Notes: generated by a model from the sequence alone, not told the origin. A DNA stretch of 64,000 nucleotides from Marispirochaeta aestuarii (GCF_002087085.1 NZ_MWQY01000009.1:124001-188000), one strand, 5' to 3'; numbered from the stretch's first letter, positions 1 to 6,291 are shown. Numbers and translations are program-made.

Positions 1-716
1 CTGTCCACAACTGCCCGCAGGTTGATCGGGATTCCCGCCGCCAGAGCCGCGTCGATCCCCCGGACGATCCGGTCAAAGGTGGCACCGCCTCCATGCAGGG
101 GACGCCGTCTGTCATGGACCACCCCCACCCCGTCGAGGGTAACCTGGACCTCCCGGATACTAGCTGAGGATAAAAGGGGAATATAGTTCTCCAGCTCATA
201 CCCGTTGGTCACAACCGCTACGCTCAGCTTACGATCCGCCGCCTTTGTCAGGATTCTCTCCAGCACATTCCGGGAAGCTGAGGAAGGGAGGAGGGGCTCG
301 CCGCCGAAAACAGTTATGTACTTTTTTCGTCCCGCCAGTTCCGTATCGAGCCAGCGGAAAAAAGCATCGGTAAGCTCCGGATTACGGCTGTCGTTCGCGT
401 GGTCATAACTCTCCTGGTAACAGTAGGAGCAGGCAAAGTTGCAGGCATAGGTGGGGACAAAGAAAACCTGAACCTCCTCCGCTTCCCTGGCTTCGATAAA
501 AGAGAGGTAAGCATTGCGATAACGCCTGTTTTCTTCCCCTTCATCAGACAGGTAACCCTTTTCAATGAACTCCGTCGGATCCGCGATGTTTCCCTTTTCA
601 TACTCCCGGGCCAGTTCCGGGGAAAGGATATCCGCCTGCTTTGACAGGGGATTCAGCAGGATATAATTATCCGAGTCCTTCAGTTTCCTGAAGATGTTAT
701 GTTTCGAGCGGGTCAT
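1..716 (-). CDS. Radical SAM peptide-maturase-like protein, C-terminus cut by window edge
   Basis: The visible 238 residues contain the radical SAM iron-sulfur motif CNFACSYC (C92, C96, C99), followed by the GGEPLL segment that binds the SAM amino group and a VTNGYEL strand typical of the partial TIM barrel. About 80 residues precede the cluster motif (ILLNPLSKQADIL...), as in peptide-modifying SPASM-type maturases, where such a front part often binds the leader peptide. The start ATG at 716 is chosen because it opens the in-frame reading; the upstream AGGAAGAG serves as ribosome site. The C-terminal SPASM or auxiliary-cluster region lies outside the window, so the subclass cannot be fixed. 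It lies 62 nt downstream of a tiny cysteine-rich peptide gene, with a strong hairpin between. Radical SAM membership is certain; peptide maturation is inferred from context and the N-terminal extension. Confidence 0.85.
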   Translation of the reverse strand, partial: MTRSKHNIFRKLKDSDNYILLNPLSKQADILSPELAREYEKGNIADPTEFIEKGYLSDEGEENRRYRNAYLSFIEAREAEEVQVFFVPTYACNFACSYCYQESYDHANDSRNPELTDAFFRWLDTELAGRKKYITVFGGEPLLPSSASRNVLERILTKAADRKLSVAVVTNGYELENYIPLLSSASIREVQVTLDGVGVVHDRRRPLHGGGATFDRIVRGIDAALAAGIPINLRAVVD

Positions 717-746
717 TTTCTCTTCCTGAGCTTTGTAATCTAAAGT

Positions 747-770
747 TCCCGGGGGAGTACTCCCCCGGGA
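747..770 (-). terminator. Perfect 24-nt palindrome, hairpin between peptide gene and radical SAM gene
   Basis: The 24 bases are exactly self-complementary (half-site TCCCGGGGGAGT), giving a very GC-rich stem around a GTAC centre. It begins 8 nt after the stop codon of the small peptide gene. No U-run follows on the minus strand (ACTTTAGATT comes next), so it is more likely a leaky attenuator or an RNA-stabilising 3' end than a full terminator. Such an element would let the peptide message accumulate above that of the downstream enzyme. Confidence 0.7.
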
Positions 771-778
771 TGCAGGTC

Positions 779-886
779 CTAATCGTGGCAGCCCGCGACA
801 ATCTTTGAGGTCTTGGCGCAGCACTGGGCTACGGCCTGACCGGAAGAAGGAGTCTTCTTCACCAGGGAAAGCATTTTTTTCTTCAT
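779..886 (-). CDS. 35-residue cysteine-containing peptide, candidate RiPP precursor
   Basis: ATG at 886 has a strong AAGGAG ribosome site 6 nt upstream, and TAG ends at 779, giving 35 residues. The N-terminus is basic (MKKKMLSLVKKT), followed by a small, flexible stretch (PSSGQAVAQ) and a C-terminal CCAKTSKIVAGCHD with three cysteines. It has no transmembrane segment and resembles no housekeeping small protein I know. It sits 35 nt after an ArsM-like methyltransferase gene and 62 nt before a radical SAM gene, all on one strand. Leader/core division, the order precursor then maturase, and the intervening hairpin fit a ribosomally made, post-translationally modified peptide. The cysteines could be thioether donors (sactipeptide or ranthipeptide type) or metal/arsenic ligands. 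Function is inferred; the open reading frame and ribosome site are seen directly. Confidence 0.7.
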   Translation of the reverse strand: MKKKMLSLVKKTPSSGQAVAQCCAKTSKIVAGCHD

Positions 887-921
887 GCCTGTCTCCTTAT
901 CTCCTCTTCAATTATATAGTA

Positions 922-1599
922 TCAGCTTTTCTTTCCGGGCTTGTATCCCCGGATAGTCCAGCTGGATACTTCAATTTCTCCCTTGGGGTAGGGAGCGCTC
1001 TCTTCCAGAACGCTGATTTCGGCGAAGCCGGCGTTCTGAAGATGCATAAGGTATTCATCACGGGTTACGGAACCCGCCCAGCATTCCGCGACCGCCTCCG
1101 GGTCGTTACGGTATTTTTCCGGGACCGGCGCGGTACTGTAAATGTCGCTCACCACAAAACGTCCACCGGGCTTGAGTATGCGGAATACCTCGTTCCAGAC
1201 CTTCTGTTTGTCCTCGGCATGATTGATGGTGCAGTTGCTGATAACCAGATCAACCGTTGCATCATCGAGCTTCAGGTGTTCCAGGTCGGTTTTAATTACC
1301 TGTCCGTTGCTGATGCCGAATTTCTCCAGGTTGCGTTCAGCTTTGCGGATCATACCATCGGATATATCGATTCCGATAACCCGCCCGCCCGTACCTGTCT
1401 CTTCCGCGAGGCGTATCAGGTCGAGACCCCGGCCGCTGCCCAGATCGACGCAGGTCTCTCCAGGGGCAGCTGCCGCATGGTTGATGGCACCTCCACAGGA
1501 GAGACAGCAGGATGTTTCTGCCAGCTCACTGTATCGTACATTTATACTGCTGACCGTGCTTTGCGACTGTGCAGTGCAGCAGGATTGTGTTTCCGTCAT
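922..1599 (-). CDS. ArsM-like SAM-dependent methyltransferase
   Basis: Class I methyltransferase of 225 residues. Motif I is VDLGSGRGLD (51-60), the acidic loop is GIDIS (76-80), and the post-motif strand is ILKPGGRFVVSD. It has the ArsM hallmark cysteines: C123 in SNCTINHAEDK and C173 in AECWAGS, 50 residues apart as in characterised arsenite methyltransferases, plus an N-terminal group C31, C32 and C35 that can supply the third thiolate. Two more cysteines (C7, C8) lie at the very N-terminus. I chose ATG 1599 over an upstream TTG at 1644 because GGGAG lies 6 nt before it. It follows the MarR gene by 37 nt and precedes the small peptide gene. The known family role is As(III) methylation; whether the substrate here is arsenic, another thiophile or the neighbouring peptide is open. 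Confidence 0.8.
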   Translation of the reverse strand: MTETQSCCTAQSQSTVSSINVRYSELAETSCCLSCGGAINHAAAAPGETCVDLGSGRGLDLIRLAEETGTGGRVIGIDISDGMIRKAERNLEKFGISNGQVIKTDLEHLKLDDATVDLVISNCTINHAEDKQKVWNEVFRILKPGGRFVVSDIYSTAPVPEKYRNDPEAVAECWAGSVTRDEYLMHLQNAGFAEISVLEESAPYPKGEIEVSSWTIRGYKPGKKS

Positions 1600-1636
1600 A
1601 TCATCTCCCTGTATAGTTCTCTTTGAAGTCCGGGTA

Positions 1637-2077
1637 TCATACAACCTGCAGCAGAAGTTTCATGCCCTGTCGAACCTGTTCGATCTGCCTGGTGTCAAGC
1701 TTTTCAAGGAAATCACGTTCGCAGGTGTCCTTTATCCGGCTGAGATCCTTCAGATGCTCCTTCCCTGCAGAGGAAAGTCGTATTATTGAGCTGCGCCGGT
1801 CATCGGCATCCTGTTCCGAAACGAGCAGTCCCCGGTCAAGAAGGCCTCCGATAATACGGCTTCCTCTGGATGTTGAGACCCCGAGCCTCATGGACAGCTC
1901 CTTTGAGCTCATGCTGATATTATTCAGCAGGAAAATCGTCATGACCTCCCGGGGGGAAAGTCCGTATCTGCTGCCGATTTTTTCCTCGATATTACAGCGG
2001 TTTTTGAAGTCTATTACGAGATCGATAAGTCGTTCAGGTTGTTTAAGCGCTTCGTTGCCCACAGCAATTGTTGCCAT
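1637..2077 (-). CDS. MarR-family transcriptional regulator
   Basis: Winged-helix regulator of 146 residues. The recognition region is SSKELSMRLGVSTSRGSRIIGGLLDRGLL, and the wing is VSEQDADDRRSSIIRLSSAGKEHL, the classic MarR wing with its DxRxx signature. Long helices at both ends would form the dimer interface. Two cysteines (in NRCNIEE and KDTCERDF) could act as thiol, metalloid or oxidant sensors. It is the first gene of the minus-strand operon leading to the methyltransferase, the small peptide and the radical SAM enzyme. A consensus-like promoter containing a perfect palindrome lies immediately upstream, so autorepression of the operon is likely. ATG 2077 has no ribosome site in front, and the -10 box lies 6 nt upstream, so the message may be leaderless. 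The inducer is unknown. Confidence 0.88.
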   Translation of the reverse strand: MATIAVGNEALKQPERLIDLVIDFKNRCNIEEKIGSRYGLSPREVMTIFLLNNISMSSKELSMRLGVSTSRGSRIIGGLLDRGLLVSEQDADDRRSSIIRLSSAGKEHLKDLSRIKDTCERDFLEKLDTRQIEQVRQGMKLLLQVV

Positions 2078-2083
2078 GAGCAA

Positions 2084-2112
2084 CTAATATCAGTTATATA
2101 ACTTTTTGTCAA
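2084..2112 (-). promoter_or_regulatory. Promoter with embedded palindromic operator for the marR-methyltransferase-peptide-rSAM operon
   Basis: Read on the minus strand: a perfect -35 TTGACA (2112-2107), a 17-nt spacer and -10 TATTAG (2089-2084). The spacer holds the perfect palindrome AGTTATATAACT (2092-2103), where a MarR dimer would block RNA polymerase. The expected transcription start falls at or next to the regulator's ATG. Confidence 0.7.
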
Positions 2113-2157: not shown

Positions 2158-2667
2158 TCAACGTGTCTTCCCCCGGGTCTTATCAAGAAATATCGCCTTT
2201 ATGCCCCCCTTGTCGAGGATATTCATGGCGTAGGAGGAGAGCTTCTCCCCTTCAAGGACTTTTCCAGTCCGGGAATTAGTAACGGTCCCCTGTTCCAGAT
2301 CGATTTTTAGTGTGTCTCCGCTTTCCACCCGGGAGGAAATTCCCTTGCACACCAGAAGCGGCAGGGCCAGGTTGATGGCGTTGCGGTAAAAGATGCGGGC
2401 AAAGGACTCGGCCACCACCGCCGCAACGCCGGCATGCTTCAGTGCTATGGCTGCGTGCTCCCGGCTCGAGCCGCAGCCGAAGTTTGTACCCGCAACGACG
2501 ATGTCCCCGGGCTGAAGCTTTGAGGCGAAGGAGGGATCAGCCCCCTCAAGGCAGTGCCGGGCTATCTCGTCAGGTTCCACCAGCTCGAGGTACTGTCCCG
2601 GGTAGATCTGGTCCGTGTCTATGTTTTTTCCAAAGAGGTGGGCTTTTCCTGTGTATCCGGTCTTCAT
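2158..2667 (-). CDS. leuD: 3-isopropylmalate dehydratase-type small subunit (LeuD/HacB-like)
   Basis: A 169-residue swivel-domain subunit of an aconitase-family hydro-lyase. It contains the YLRT-equivalent region [13 protein letters not shown], the substrate-loop motif [13 protein letters not shown] (glycine/serine-rich, with the arginine that binds substrate carboxylate) and the helix [17 protein letters not shown]. The length suits the short, archaeal-like LeuD/HacB class. Its ATG overlaps the stop of the large subunit by 4 nt (ATGA), so the two are translationally coupled. No leuA or leuB is adjacent, so the enzyme may act on isopropylmalate, citramalate or dimethylmalate-type substrates; the family does not settle which. 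It works as a heterodimer in the cytosol with the gene upstream. Confidence 0.85.
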
Positions 2668-3938
2668 ACTGATGCTCCTTGAGGGGTGTCGAGGTATTTG
2701 CCGGGATCCGCCAGGCTGCCTTCCAGGGCGGAGGCGGCCACCAGGGCCGGGGAACCAAGGTAGATCTCTGCTTCCGGGCTTCCCATGCGTCCCGGGAAAT
2801 TTCTGTTCGTGGAGGAGACGCAGACTTCTCCCCTGGCCAGGATTCCCGCATGAGTCCCCAGGCAGGGGCCGCAGCCGGGGGCGTTGAAGGTTGCACCGGC
2901 TTCGATCAGGGTCTGTACGTAGCCCTTTTCCATGGCTTTTTTGTATACCTCCATGGAGGCTGGAATTACGACCATCCGCGTGGCAGGGGCTATTTTCCTT
3001 CCCTTTACCACCTGTGCCGCAGCCTCCAGGTCCTCCAGACGTCCGCCGGTACAGGAACCGATGAATGCCTGGTCCACCTTCACCGGGGAAACCTCCGAAA
3101 AAGGAAACACATTGTCCACACTGTGGGGACAGGCAAGCTGGGGCTCCAGGGAGGATACATCGAAGAAGTGCTCCCCGGCGTAGGTGTAGCCCGGATCGGT
3201 CTCGTCCAGGATGTAATCAGTCCCGAAACGCTCTTCCACGTAATCCAGCACGGCCCGGTTGGGCTTCATCCAGGCGGTCTTGGCTCCCATTTCCACCGCC
3301 ATATTGCAGACGGCCATCCGCTCCGATACCCCCAGGCCTTCCACGTACTCCCCGCAGAACTCCACCGCCTGGTAGACCGCCGCATCCGCCTTGAGCTTTC
3401 CGATGATGTGAAGAATCACATCCTTGGCATAGACCCCGGTCCGGGGCTTGCCGGTAATCTCGATTTTTATTACTTCCGGGACCCTGAACCAGAGTTCCCC
3501 GGATATCAGCACCGTGGCAGCGTCGGTTGCCCCGATTCCGGTACCGAAGGCCCCGAAGGCCCCGTGGGTAGTTGTATGGGAATCCGTGGCCACCAGGATC
3601 ATACCCGGACGGATCAGCCCAGCCTCGGGCATAACCTGATGACAGACCCCTGCATTGATATCAAAGTGATGGGTAAGGCCCTGTTCCCTGGCGAAGTCCC
3701 GCATCTCCTTGTGGATCTGGGCGGTGCGTATCGTCGGGGCCGGGGAATAATGGTCAAATACAAAAGATATCTTCGTCGGGTCCCAGACCTTTGTGCCTCC
3801 CATCTCGTAAAAGGAACGGACCACCTGAAGGTACAAATCGTTGAGTTCGATAAAATCAACCGAGCAGTTCAGGATCTCCCCGGGTGTAACGGAATCGACC
3901 CCCGCCGCCCGGGCGAGCATCTTTTCTACTGCGTGCAC
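2664..3938 (-). CDS. leuC: 3-isopropylmalate dehydratase-type large subunit (LeuC/HacA-like, [4Fe-4S])
   Basis: A 424-residue aconitase-family large subunit. The three cluster-ligand cysteines are present: C296 in GSCTGG, and C356 and C359 in CGPCLG. Substrate-site segments include VATDSHTTTHGAFGAFGTGIGATD. The size and HHFDINAGVCHQV signature match the LeuC/homoaconitase subgroup that also includes 2,3-dimethylmalate and citramalate dehydratases. The start is GTG at 3938 with AAGGAG 7 nt upstream. Divergent from alanine dehydrogenase across a 142-nt promoter region. Because the other leucine genes are not here and the neighbours are catabolic (alanine dehydrogenase, tricarboxylate-type transporter), a catabolic hydroxy-dicarboxylate role is as plausible as leucine synthesis. 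Confidence 0.87.
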   Translation of the reverse strand: MHAVEKMLARAAGVDSVTPGEILNCSVDFIELNDLYLQVVRSFYEMGGTKVWDPTKISFVFDHYSPAPTIRTAQIHKEMRDFAREQGLTHHFDINAGVCHQVMPEAGLIRPGMILVATDSHTTTHGAFGAFGTGIGATDAATVLISGELWFRVPEVIKIEITGKPRTGVYAKDVILHIIGKLKADAAVYQAVEFCGEYVEGLGVSERMAVCNMAVEMGAKTAWMKPNRAVLDYVEERFGTDYILDETDPGYTYAGEHFFDVSSLEPQLACPHSVDNVFPFSEVSPVKVDQAFIGSCTGGRLEDLEAAAQVVKGRKIAPATRMVVIPASMEVYKKAMEKGYVQTLIEAGATFNAPGCGPCLGTHAGILARGEVCVSSTNRNFPGRMGSPEAEIYLGSPALVAASALEGSLADPGKYLDTPQGASV

Positions 3939-4080
3939 TGAAATCTCCTTATTCTATAATATCAGGGACAGTATAGCAGAGAAAATACCGGGAGGGGGAT
4001 CGATCTTCAGCTAGAAAAACAGCGGTTTTTTGCTGACTCCCATGGTATAAAGATAGAGTAGTCAACCCAGGGAGGTACCC
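3939..4080. promoter_or_regulatory. Divergent promoter region between leuC-like gene and alanine dehydrogenase
   Basis: On the plus strand a TATAAA -10-like box at 4046-4051 precedes a GGAGGT ribosome site (4071-4076) and the ald ATG. On the minus strand the sequence TGATATTATAG just upstream of AAGGAG resembles an extended -10 for leuC. No convincing -35 or operator was seen on either side. Confidence 0.35.
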
Positions 4081-5190
4081 ATGATACTAGGCTGTCCAAA
4101 GGAAATAAAAAAGCAGGAATACCGGGTGGGACTGACGCCCCACTGCGTTTCCGCCTATTCCCGGCGGGGACACAAGGTTCTGGTTCAGAAAGGAGCCGGG
4201 GAAGGTTCCGGTTTCGAGGACCAGGAATACGCGGAAGCGGGAGCCAGACTCGTGGAGACAGCCGCGGAAGCCTGGGCCGCCGATATGGTGGTCAAGGTAA
4301 AGGAACCCCTGCCGGAGGAGTATCGGTTCTTCCGCAGAGACCTGATTCTCTATACCTATCTGCACCTGGCTGCGGCGGAGGAATTGACCCGGGAGATGCT
4401 CGAAACGAAGGTAAAAGGTATCGCCTATGAAACAATCCAGACCGATGACGGGCACCTGCCCTGTCTTACACCCATGAGCGAGATCGCAGGACGACTGAGC
4501 GTACAGGAGGGGGCCAAGTACCTGGAAAAGACCTTCGGAGGCCGGGGTGTTCTGCTGGGAGGGGTCCCTGGAGTCGAACGCGGAAAGGTGGCCATCCTCG
4601 GCGGCGGTGTCGTCGGCATGAACGCCTGTAAAATCGCCGTAGGCATGGGAGCGGAGGTAACCATCCTGGATATCAGCACAGCCCGGCTGGCCTACATGGA
4701 CGATATATTCCAGACGCAGATAACAACCCTGGTTTCCAGTGAACGGAATATTGAAAAGATCGCCCGGGAGAGCGATGTGATTATAGGGGCAGTCCTGATT
4801 CCCGGAGCAAAAGCACCGCGGCTGATCCGGAGGGAACACCTCAAGCTGATGAAAAAAGGCGCCGTGCTGGTGGATGTCGCCGTGGACCAGGGGGGCTGCT
4901 TCGAAACAACCAGGGCCACCTATCATGATGACCCGGTCTATCTTGTGGATAATGTAATCCATTACTGCGTGGCAAATATGCCCGGTGCCGTCGCCCGCAC
5001 ATCCACCCTGGCCCTGACAAACGCCACCCTGAACCATGGCCTGCTCCTTGCCGACAGGGGGGTGGAAGCCGCCTGCGCGGAATCAGCCCCTTTACGAAGG
5101 GGTCTGAACACCCTCGACGGCAGATGCACCCACCGGGGTGTGGCGGAGGCCTTCGGCATCGCCTACACCGATCCCGCAACACTGCTATAG
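4081..5190 (+). CDS. ald: Alanine dehydrogenase
   Basis: A 369-residue NAD-dependent L-alanine dehydrogenase (L-alanine + NAD + water to pyruvate + ammonium). The substrate residues are in place: R15 in EYRVGL, K74 in VKVKEP, H95 in YTYLHLA and the catalytic aspartate in DVAVDQGG. The Rossmann motif is AILGGGVVGMNA. The start is supported by GGAGGT 5 nt upstream, and the first residues (MILGCPKEIK) are the standard family N-terminus. The gene stands alone between the divergent leuCD pair and convergent tctC. In an anaerobe it would most likely serve amino-acid catabolism or ammonium assimilation. Confidence 0.95.
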   Translation: MILGCPKEIKKQEYRVGLTPHCVSAYSRRGHKVLVQKGAGEGSGFEDQEYAEAGARLVETAAEAWAADMVVKVKEPLPEEYRFFRRDLILYTYLHLAAAEELTREMLETKVKGIAYETIQTDDGHLPCLTPMSEIAGRLSVQEGAKYLEKTFGGRGVLLGGVPGVERGKVAILGGGVVGMNACKIAVGMGAEVTILDISTARLAYMDDIFQTQITTLVSSERNIEKIARESDVIIGAVLIPGAKAPRLIRREHLKLMKKGAVLVDVAVDQGGCFETTRATYHDDPVYLVDNVIHYCVANMPGAVARTSTLALTNATLNHGLLLADRGVEAACAESAPLRRGLNTLDGRCTHRGVAEAFGIAYTDPATLL

Positions 5191-5212
5191 AGTCGAAATT
5201 CATTACCCGGGG

Positions 5213-5259
5213 AATAAAAAAAAGCCCCCGATGCATCCTTCAGGATGCAGTCGGGGGCT
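5213..5259 (-). terminator. Rho-independent terminator of tctC
   Basis: Long stem-loop at 5223-5259: AGCCCCCGA pairs with TCGGGGGCT and TGCATCC with GGATGCA around a TTCA loop, with a one-base bulge. The A-tract at 5216-5223 reads as a U-run after the hairpin on the minus strand, so it mainly ends tctC; it may also slow transcripts leaving ald. Confidence 0.9.
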
Positions 5260-5276
5260 GAGGATACAATTTTTCC

Positions 5277-6254
5277 CTATTTGCCCATGATAGACTTGTA
5301 CATCGCTTCCTGCTTGCTCAGGAAGTCGAAGGTGTCGTCAGGAGTCATATAGGTGGCGGTTACCAGCAGAGTCTTTTTGGCCTCGGCGGCGTAGTCGGGG
5401 TTGTTGACCACGTTTTTCAGGGCTGCGGTAAAGGTCTCTACGATGCTGTCCGGGGTCTCCTTGGGAAAAGCATAGTAGAAGAATTTTGTAAAGGAGACGT
5501 CATAGCCCATTTCCTTGAAGGTGGGAACATCGGGGAAAGATGGATTCCTCTTATCGGACATAACGCCCAGGGCATGAAAGTCGCCGCTTTTGATATAGTC
5601 GGAGACAAGACCGTACTGGGTACCGATAATATCAATCTGGTTACCAAGAAGTGCCGCAGTCTTGGCAGCAGCACCGCCGACGTCGACGATATTCAGCTTT
5701 ACACCGGCGGCCTGCTGGTATGCCAGCAGATGCAGGTGAGTGAAGGAACCTACCTCGGTTGCAAAGGAGATACTCTCGGGGTTCTTCTTTGATGCTTCTG
5801 TAATGTCCCTCATGTCCTTGTAGGGAGCCTTTGCGCTTCCAACAAAAGCATTGGTTTCGTCGAGAACAGCGAGTCCGCCGAGTTTGTAGTCCTGGAAGGA
5901 GTAGTCAACAAGGCCGAGAAGCTTGTTCAGCAGAAGTCCGGGATGGAAGAAGAGAATGGTGTTGCCGTCGGGTTTGGCATCCAGTACTCTCCGGCTCCCC
6001 AGGGAACCGCCGGCTCCGCCGACATTCACAACAACCACCGGCTGTCCGAGTTCCTTTTCAAGGTACTTTGCGAGAATACGGCTGTTGACATCGGTGTCGC
6101 CGCCGGGACCTGCAGGAACGATTACTTCGATAGGCCTGGTGGGCCACTCAGCGGATTTCGCAGCTGCCTGCCCGCCCTGTTCAGCCTCACCGTTGGCGAA
6201 CATCAGGGGCGCCGCCAGCGCAGTTATCAATAAAACAATCAGTAGGCGTTTCAT
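5277..6254 (-). CDS. tctC: Tripartite tricarboxylate transporter substrate-binding protein
   Basis: A 325-residue periplasmic binding protein of the TctC/Bug family. After a signal peptide ending LMFANGEAEQ comes WPTRPIEVIVPAGPGGDTDVNSRI, the typical Bug start with the PxGPGG substrate loop. Further family motifs are VVNVGGAGGSLGSRRV and KPDGNTILF. It would hand a carboxylate (tricarboxylate, dicarboxylate or aromatic acid) to the TctA/TctB membrane unit encoded about 2.3 kb away on the other side of the regulator. Two adjacent ATGs exist (6257 and 6254); the second has better spacing from GGGAGG. A sigma-54 promoter lies just upstream and a strong terminator downstream, so it is a one-gene transcript on the opposite strand to tctBA. 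Confidence 0.93.
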   Translation of the reverse strand: MKRLLIVLLITALAAPLMFANGEAEQGGQAAAKSAEWPTRPIEVIVPAGPGGDTDVNSRILAKYLEKELGQPVVVVNVGGAGGSLGSRRVLDAKPDGNTILFFHPGLLLNKLLGLVDYSFQDYKLGGLAVLDETNAFVGSAKAPYKDMRDITEASKKNPESISFATEVGSFTHLHLLAYQQAAGVKLNIVDVGGAAAKTAALLGNQIDIIGTQYGLVSDYIKSGDFHALGVMSDKRNPSFPDVPTFKEMGYDVSFTKFFYYAFPKETPDSIVETFTAALKNVVNNPDYAAEAKKTLLVTATYMTPDDTFDFLSKQEAMYKSIMGK

Positions 6255-6291
6255 CATGAAACCTCCCTTTGTGGTGATGATACAAATACAG

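Follow-up and report, generated by a model that had tools for sequence, protein, structure and literature searches.

PQQ and mycofactocin are intracellular redox cofactors that are made from ribosomal peptides with an invariant core by way of SPASM radical SAM (rSAM) enzymes. In the arsenosugar (ArsM and ArsS) and arsinothricin (ArsL and ArsM) pathways, the rSAM enzymes act on small arsenicals and not on a ribosomal peptide. In the SbtA/SbtM thio(seleno)oxazole RiPPs (Lewis et al. 2021, as cited in PMC13188914), the rSAM enzyme reportedly acts on Cys/Sec of a small peptide. The locus analyzed here pairs an rSAM enzyme with an ArsM-type enzyme, as the arsenosugar and arsinothricin pathways do, but it contains a peptide gene that those pathways lack; unlike the PQQ and mycofactocin systems, it has no recurring PqqD/MftB or peptidase partner, and its core is thiol-based. 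We consider it very probable that the peptide and the rSAM protein stand in a RiPP-type relation. That the system yields an intracellular peptide thiol cofactor, on which a thiophilic element, most likely arsenic, is held for the methyltransferase, is proposed only tentatively, as a reading that falls somewhat short of an even chance.

Organization of the operon

The window, that is, the whole 64,000-nucleotide stretch of Marispirochaeta aestuarii DNA that was analyzed, belongs to contig C9 of genome G000 (locus L003), its base 1 being C9:124001. The original prediction placed four minus-strand genes at the left end of the window, for a MarR regulator, a methyltransferase, a peptide and an rSAM protein, and all four are present there. 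Gene 1 of the operon encodes a MarR-family regulator of 148 aa (1637..2083 (-); Pfam MarR_2 match, 2e-10), with a TTG start and an in-frame ATG at 2077. It is followed by an ArsM-like SAM methyltransferase (MT) of 225 aa (922..1599 (-), counted from the ATG), by the predicted 35-residue cysteine peptide MKKKMLSLVKKTPSSGQAVAQCCAKTSKIVAGCHD, which we located at 779..886 (-) and which ends in the invariant core AQCCAKTSKIVAGCHD (782..829 (-)), and by a GC-rich palindrome or hairpin between the peptide stop and the rSAM start (744..772 (-)). The N-terminal part of the rSAM/SPASM maturase occupies 1..713 (-), and the remainder lies left of the window at G000:C9:123400-124000. When the source contig was read past the left edge, the full rSAM proved to be 437 aa long, from the ATG at window 713 to C9:123400. 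Directly after it come a thioredoxin–thioredoxin reductase (Trx-TrxR) fusion of 426 aa with CPPC and CATC motifs (C9:122117-123397) and a DUF1847 protein (C9:121556-122101). The operon order is MarR > MT > 35-aa peptide > rSAM/SPASM > Trx-TrxR fusion > DUF1847, extending beyond the window edge, where the conserved Trx-TrxR partner was invisible to the original prediction.

Genes for a LeuD/LeuC-like hydrolyase pair, for an alanine dehydrogenase-like protein and for a TctC-like solute-binding protein lie next to the operon (window 2158-6257); none of them was seen among the recurrent neighbours of related loci. Left of the window, L003:5932-9691 (-) holds a probable citrate lyase operon (citF/citE/citD/citC-like, by eye), close to a large sensor kinase and a response regulator.

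The peptide family and the downstream hairpin

We collected 126 distinct peptides, mostly of 30-42 aa, with a regular expression in which CC, C and K/R were fixed and A, G, H and D were left free. They share one design, namely, a leader M[K/R]S[LVI]..K, a variable linker, and 16 terminal residues A-Q-C-C-[AST]-K-x-[ST]-x4-G-C-H-D-COOH; the window peptide has an M+SLI+K-like leader followed by the 16-aa C-terminal core. The core residues A, C, C, K, G, C, H and D are found in 126/126 peptides and Q in 125, so that A, G, H and D are invariant although the collecting expression did not constrain them. The silent positions of the core codons are fully mixed and saturated with the amino acids constant, indicating that selection acts on the protein. 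A short precursor with a conserved leader and core, encoded beside its maturase, meets the membership test for an rSAM-dependent RiPP. The peptide has no matching model in NCBIfam, Pfam or PHROG, a hit to Pfam BTK (E=0.05) being a chance match.

Between the peptide stop and the rSAM start there is a self-complementary match at 747-770. A hairpin after the peptide stop reaches z<-2, relative to dinucleotide shuffles, in 91/131 loci (median z -3.5), compared with 28/131 and 24/131 loci for two control regions, and 29 have a T-run. The hairpin is probably an attenuator or partial terminator giving the peptide in excess over the enzyme, as would suit a stoichiometric product.

Distribution and linkage of the genes

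Searching genome contigs with the rSAM alone yielded 80 rSAM-selected loci, mostly from Bacteroidales metagenome-assembled genomes (MAGs), with others from Spirochaetota, Myxococcota, Acidobacteria, Fibrobacteres and Deltaproteobacteria. In 76/80 of these loci, the rSAM adjoins a peptide that shares the C terminus described above, so the prediction escaped one of the two outcomes set to refute it, that the peptide would not be conserved beside homologous rSAM genes. The four exceptions (L056, L057, L065 and L080) are in three genomes, each with a peptide beside an MT elsewhere. An MT is present in 73 of the 80 loci, and a Trx-TrxR fusion over at least 80% of its length in 66.

An independent search using the peptide profile only gave matches in 34/296 Spirochaetota genomes and, besides the centre, in 4/295 Bacteroidota genomes and 7/188 genomes of the Myxococcota/Deltaproteobacteria group. 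Among 46 wide peptide-bearing neighbourhoods, including the window's own, the MT is immediately upstream of the peptide on the same strand in 45/46, and MT>peptide>rSAM is contiguous in 42/46. At L168 and L215, the MT still adjoins the peptide and the rSAM is remote. In the same 296 Spirochaetota genomes, the rSAM profile is found in 33, and the MT in 34/34 peptide carriers; contig breaks alone keep the 34 peptide genomes and the 33 rSAM genomes from coinciding: the peptide-only genomes G730 and G763 hold rSAM fragments cut by contig ends, and the rSAM of the rSAM-only genome G614 (71% complete) is a fragment. One family-type MT stands alone in G587, a genome that is 76% complete. In these sets, peptide and rSAM were never found apart, save at contig ends or as separate loci of one genome. 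Two apparent departures were rejected: L159, seemingly a peptide without MT and rSAM, is a rearranged locus with both nearby, and at L165, seemingly without an rSAM, the rSAM is convergent and about 2 kb away.

The distances of rSAM and MT are correlated (r=0.83; 0/2000 permutations as high), suggesting that the pair travels together. The association of peptide, rSAM and MT recurs in more than 100 loci, far beyond chance. Its distribution is patchy, and the system is missing from two genomes of the same genus. No virus-borne copy was confirmed, and the search for plasmid copies found only rSAMs at 28-29% identity. A role in anti-phage defence was rejected, as PADLOC gave only generic rSAM and MT matches.

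The radical SAM/SPASM protein

The completed rSAM contains the CX3CX2C motif (CNFACSYC) and the SPASM signature in full, CX12GX4C...CX2CX5CX3C...C. All 77/77 sequences share eleven invariant cysteines, three of the SAM cluster, seven of SPASM and one extra, C276 in 438-aa numbering (C275 from the ATG), which is nearly invariant in a wider set. In the AF2 model (pLDDT 92.1), the N-terminus forms a beta3-alpha3 element resembling an RRE, and we assign it as a putative leader-binding RRE domain by topology only. With that proviso, the membership test for an rSAM RiPP maturase (intact CX3CX2C, SPASM cysteines and leader-binding element) is met. The nearest solved folds, CteB, SuiB, anSME, SkfB and ChlB, are all peptide- or protein-modifying, and CteB is the best PDB match by both sequence and fold; BlsE, a sugar-nucleotide enzyme, also matches, at a lower score. 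The best NCBIfam models are CefB and TIGR04463, with scores less than one third of their cut-offs (117-154 bits vs 525-600; the best score is 128 bits vs 600 for this rSAM and 150 vs 525 in a relative), and the protein falls far below the curated cut-offs of the named maturase families CefB, TIGR04463, PapB, SCIFF, Clo7bot and geopeptide. The second outcome that would have refuted the prediction, membership in a family with a known non-peptide substrate, did not materialize either, the best NCBIfam and PDB relatives being peptide maturases. We infer that the rSAM works like a peptide maturase and belongs to no named family. With the peptide kept beside such an enzyme, the predicted RiPP-type reading is well supported, its chemistry being inferred.

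A SPASM homologue with 32% identity, L214:1961-3268 (-) (G036:C116), occurs in a spirochaete without the peptide; it has lost CX3CX2C and is a pseudo-radical-SAM protein of unknown role.

The ArsM-like methyltransferase

In an alignment to ArsM structures, C35, C123 and C173 of the MT (METHYLTRANSFERASE) coincide with the As-site cysteines, and all three are invariant in 39/39 MT sequences. The original prediction had correctly picked out C123 and C173, 50 apart, and had missed C35, the third member of the triad. The closest folds are ArsM and AS3MT (ArsM 4fr0, TM 0.78), and three As(III)-binding cysteines in a SAM-methyltransferase fold meet the membership test for ArsM, so that the ArsM-like call stands on firm ground. 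When compared with 17 canonical Spirochaetota ArsM sequences, the MTs fall into a separate clade (support 0.87), and Ser34 replaces the Gly of ArsM in 38/39. Several features speak against the MT as an arsenic enzyme. The extensions that ArsM has at both termini are missing, and H127 is found in 39/39 sequences where 17/17 ArsM have Leu. Four MT members score 198, 194, 231 and 196 bits to NCBIfam NF008823 (ArsM), below the cut-off of 263, the window MT scoring 198, whereas the canonical ArsM of the same genome passes with 330. The latter belongs to an ordinary arsR-arsM pair apart from the peptide system (L262:7443-8580 (-); G000:C15), and a canonical arsM likewise exists elsewhere in many other carrier genomes, so that basic arsenic methylation in these genomes does not fall to the MT. 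Judged by its sequence, the MT is a dedicated paralogue and not the cell's general arsenic methylase. ArsM-like genes thus cannot all be taken for arsenic methylases, and the clade marked by H127 deserves separate annotation.

MT families related to this one include selenoproteins. An ArsM of another member of the class, L272:622-1293 (+) (G026:C1:572589-573128), is interrupted by one in-frame TGA and is likely a selenoprotein ArsM.

The MT might instead be a second maturation enzyme that methylates the peptide, by S-methylation of a core Cys or by N- or O-methylation, with no metalloid involved and with a methylated thioether peptide of redox or signalling role as the product. The missing extensions and the fixed H127 would fit such an enzyme, AS3MT is able to methylate its own cysteines (PMC9013690), and in peptide-selected loci the MT is the peptide's tightest-linked partner, closer than the rSAM (L168 and L215). 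However, the complete three-Cys As site is beyond the needs of a peptide methylase, and we regard this explanation as unlikely, though it retains real weight. An element held by the peptide for the MT remains our preferred reading.

Regulators and neighbouring genes

Only the peptide, MT, rSAM and Trx-TrxR are generally present; DUF1847 accompanies them at about one in three of the 80 loci. One spirochaete clade has the fusion at the front (TrxR>MT>peptide>rSAM), and L165 encodes Trx and TrxR separately. The original prediction had proposed to look beyond the left edge for a SPASM domain and for export or peptidase genes; the domain was found, but across the 80 neighbourhoods there is no recurring gene for a dedicated exporter or for a leader peptidase, so the system does not qualify as a bacteriocin or exported RiPP on this criterion. 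In many spirochaete loci a MarR homologue precedes the MT; in other clades ArsR-family or IS1595-type Zn-ribbon genes take that place. An ArsR-family regulator is just upstream of the MT at L067 and L069, and the family also occurs at L164. At 27 Bacteroidales loci a divergent IS1595-type Zn-ribbon protein stands beside the operon. This transposase zinc-ribbon protein of about 146 aa (e.g., L076:5464-5904 (-); also L008, L013-L015, L017, L022, L024 and L027) has the look of a transposase fragment that was domesticated as a regulator.

A complete arsR-arsM-acr3-arsC operon at L164:665-3444 (+) (G567:C75; acr3 at 437 bits vs a cut-off of 283) converges on the rSAM-MT pair and is the sole clear arsenic-resistance linkage seen; together with the ArsR-family regulators at L067 and L069, it counts in favour of arsenic. 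L010 has an acr3-like neighbour below threshold, and at L212 a SaoE/SO_0444-type permease homologue is directly upstream of the MT. Canonical arsM is commoner in carriers (10/34 vs 16/262 genomes, p=1.6e-4), but the excess is not significant by genus (p=0.06), and we therefore do not rely on it as evidence for arsenic.

Beside the Bacteroidales loci, genes for rhodanese, CoA-disulfide reductase/rhodanese, SQR, DUF302, OsmC and thioredoxins recur. They would suit a sulfur or selenium version of the system, in which the mature peptide is a persulfide carrier of sulfane sulfur or selenide, Trx-TrxR reduces it, and the MT caps or detoxifies by methylation; the selenoproteins among related MT families point the same way. 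However, the wide neighbourhoods from Spirochaetota and Myxococcota contain hardly any of these genes, which are thus clade-specific, and selenocysteine in the core was rejected, since a scan of the loci for in-frame UGA found no core Cys replaced. This version appears doubtful, and more so than methylation of the peptide itself.

Proposed mechanism

Arsenic is our best single guess for the element, leading but unproven. What the sequences show is a conserved set of genes, a core that does not vary, catalytic motifs that are intact, the cysteines of ArsM and a hairpin conserved after the peptide gene; the following mechanism is inferred. The RRE-like N-terminal domain of the rSAM would bind the conserved leader, and the SPASM enzyme would then modify the core AQCC[AST]Kx[ST]x4GCHD. 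A radical C-S step at one or more of the three invariant Cys is the likeliest reaction; both this reaction and the modification made remain inferred. The mature peptide would stay inside the cell, where its remaining thiolates may keep a thiophilic element ready for the MT, trivalent arsenic being the likeliest. The MT would use its own three-cysteine site, and whether its substrate is the bound element or the peptide is likewise a matter of inference. The NADPH-driven Trx-TrxR fusion may reduce the enzyme and/or the peptide between turnovers, an electron flow that is also inferred. AS3MT, which belongs to the ArsM family, is known to be supported by Trx/TrxR as a reductant (PMC9013690).

The invariant core, the lack of a recurring exporter, the probable overproduction of the peptide and the NADPH-Trx-TrxR relay suggest an intracellular thiol cofactor, and, given the ArsM triad together with Trx/TrxR, the best guess is a thiophilic element, with arsenic ahead of the others. 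Against this explanation, there are no biochemical data, arsenic genes are near few loci, and the Bacteroidales carry sulfur genes instead. Its fullest form, in which an rSAM-tailored tripod thiol peptide would chelate As(III) (or Sb/Te/Se) on the three invariant positions and pass it to the MT with the NADPH-Trx-TrxR relay, is unlikely as it stands.

It is also conceivable that the peptide serves as a small protein for metal binding or regulation, the rSAM acting elsewhere and the genes being merely co-regulated, with no RiPP pathway. Three Cys, one His and one Asp could indeed bind a metal unmodified, but the rSAM is of SPASM type and its N-terminus is RRE-like, the enzymes nearest to it modify peptides, and it parts from the peptide only at contig ends or within one genome, all of which leaves this explanation very improbable. 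Least credible of all is that the peptide is exported as a natural product, for instance a bacteriocin of the ranthipeptide or sactipeptide kind. The enzyme class shared with ranthipeptide maturases would allow this, but there is no conserved transporter or peptidase gene, and the core is nearly invariant across phyla, which suits a cofactor and not a diversifying bacteriocin.

Under the preferred reading of an intracellular thiol cofactor, and if it is confirmed, RiPP chemistry would be joined to metalloid or thiol metabolism. This unnamed RiPP-type family is found in several bacterial phyla, with a core as conserved as that of a cofactor precursor, tied to an enzyme seemingly built to hold arsenic. 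Were the arsenic-carrier form true, the peptide would take a glutathione-like part in arsenic methylation, and RiPPs would gain a new functional class. With one 35-aa peptide, three enzymes and a predictable mass change, the system offers a clean test case.

Comparison with known systems

The original prediction knew of no described family with this combination, and no paper on the motif or gene combination was found within open-access PubMed Central; a description in a subscription journal or preprint is not excluded. A term search of a Bacteroidales RiPP-mining paper (PMC10352776) gave no sign of the peptide system. Ranthipeptides are marked by thioether crosslinks from Cys to a beta or gamma carbon. 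A close likeness is to the SCIFF/ranthipeptide maturases (CteB, PapB) and CefB/TIGR04463, which share the SPASM rSAM, the N-terminal leader-binding element and the short adjoining Cys precursor; the peptide here differs in having no SCIFF, Cys-every-fifth or CX3D repeats, and the ArsM-like MT and Trx-TrxR are extras. Like SbtA/SbtM, the system has an rSAM with a small Cys-bearing peptide, but it differs in having no core Sec in the loci scanned, no SbtM-type family among the top matches listed, and other partner genes. With ArsM/AS3MT, it shares the MT fold, the three As-site cysteines and Trx/TrxR as a plausible reductant, whereas the separate, sub-cut-off clade, the change of L to H127, the loss of the terminal extensions and the tie to a peptide set it apart. 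Within what the open-access literature covers, this is a probable rSAM RiPP system in which known enzyme classes serve an undescribed precursor family in an unreported partnership.
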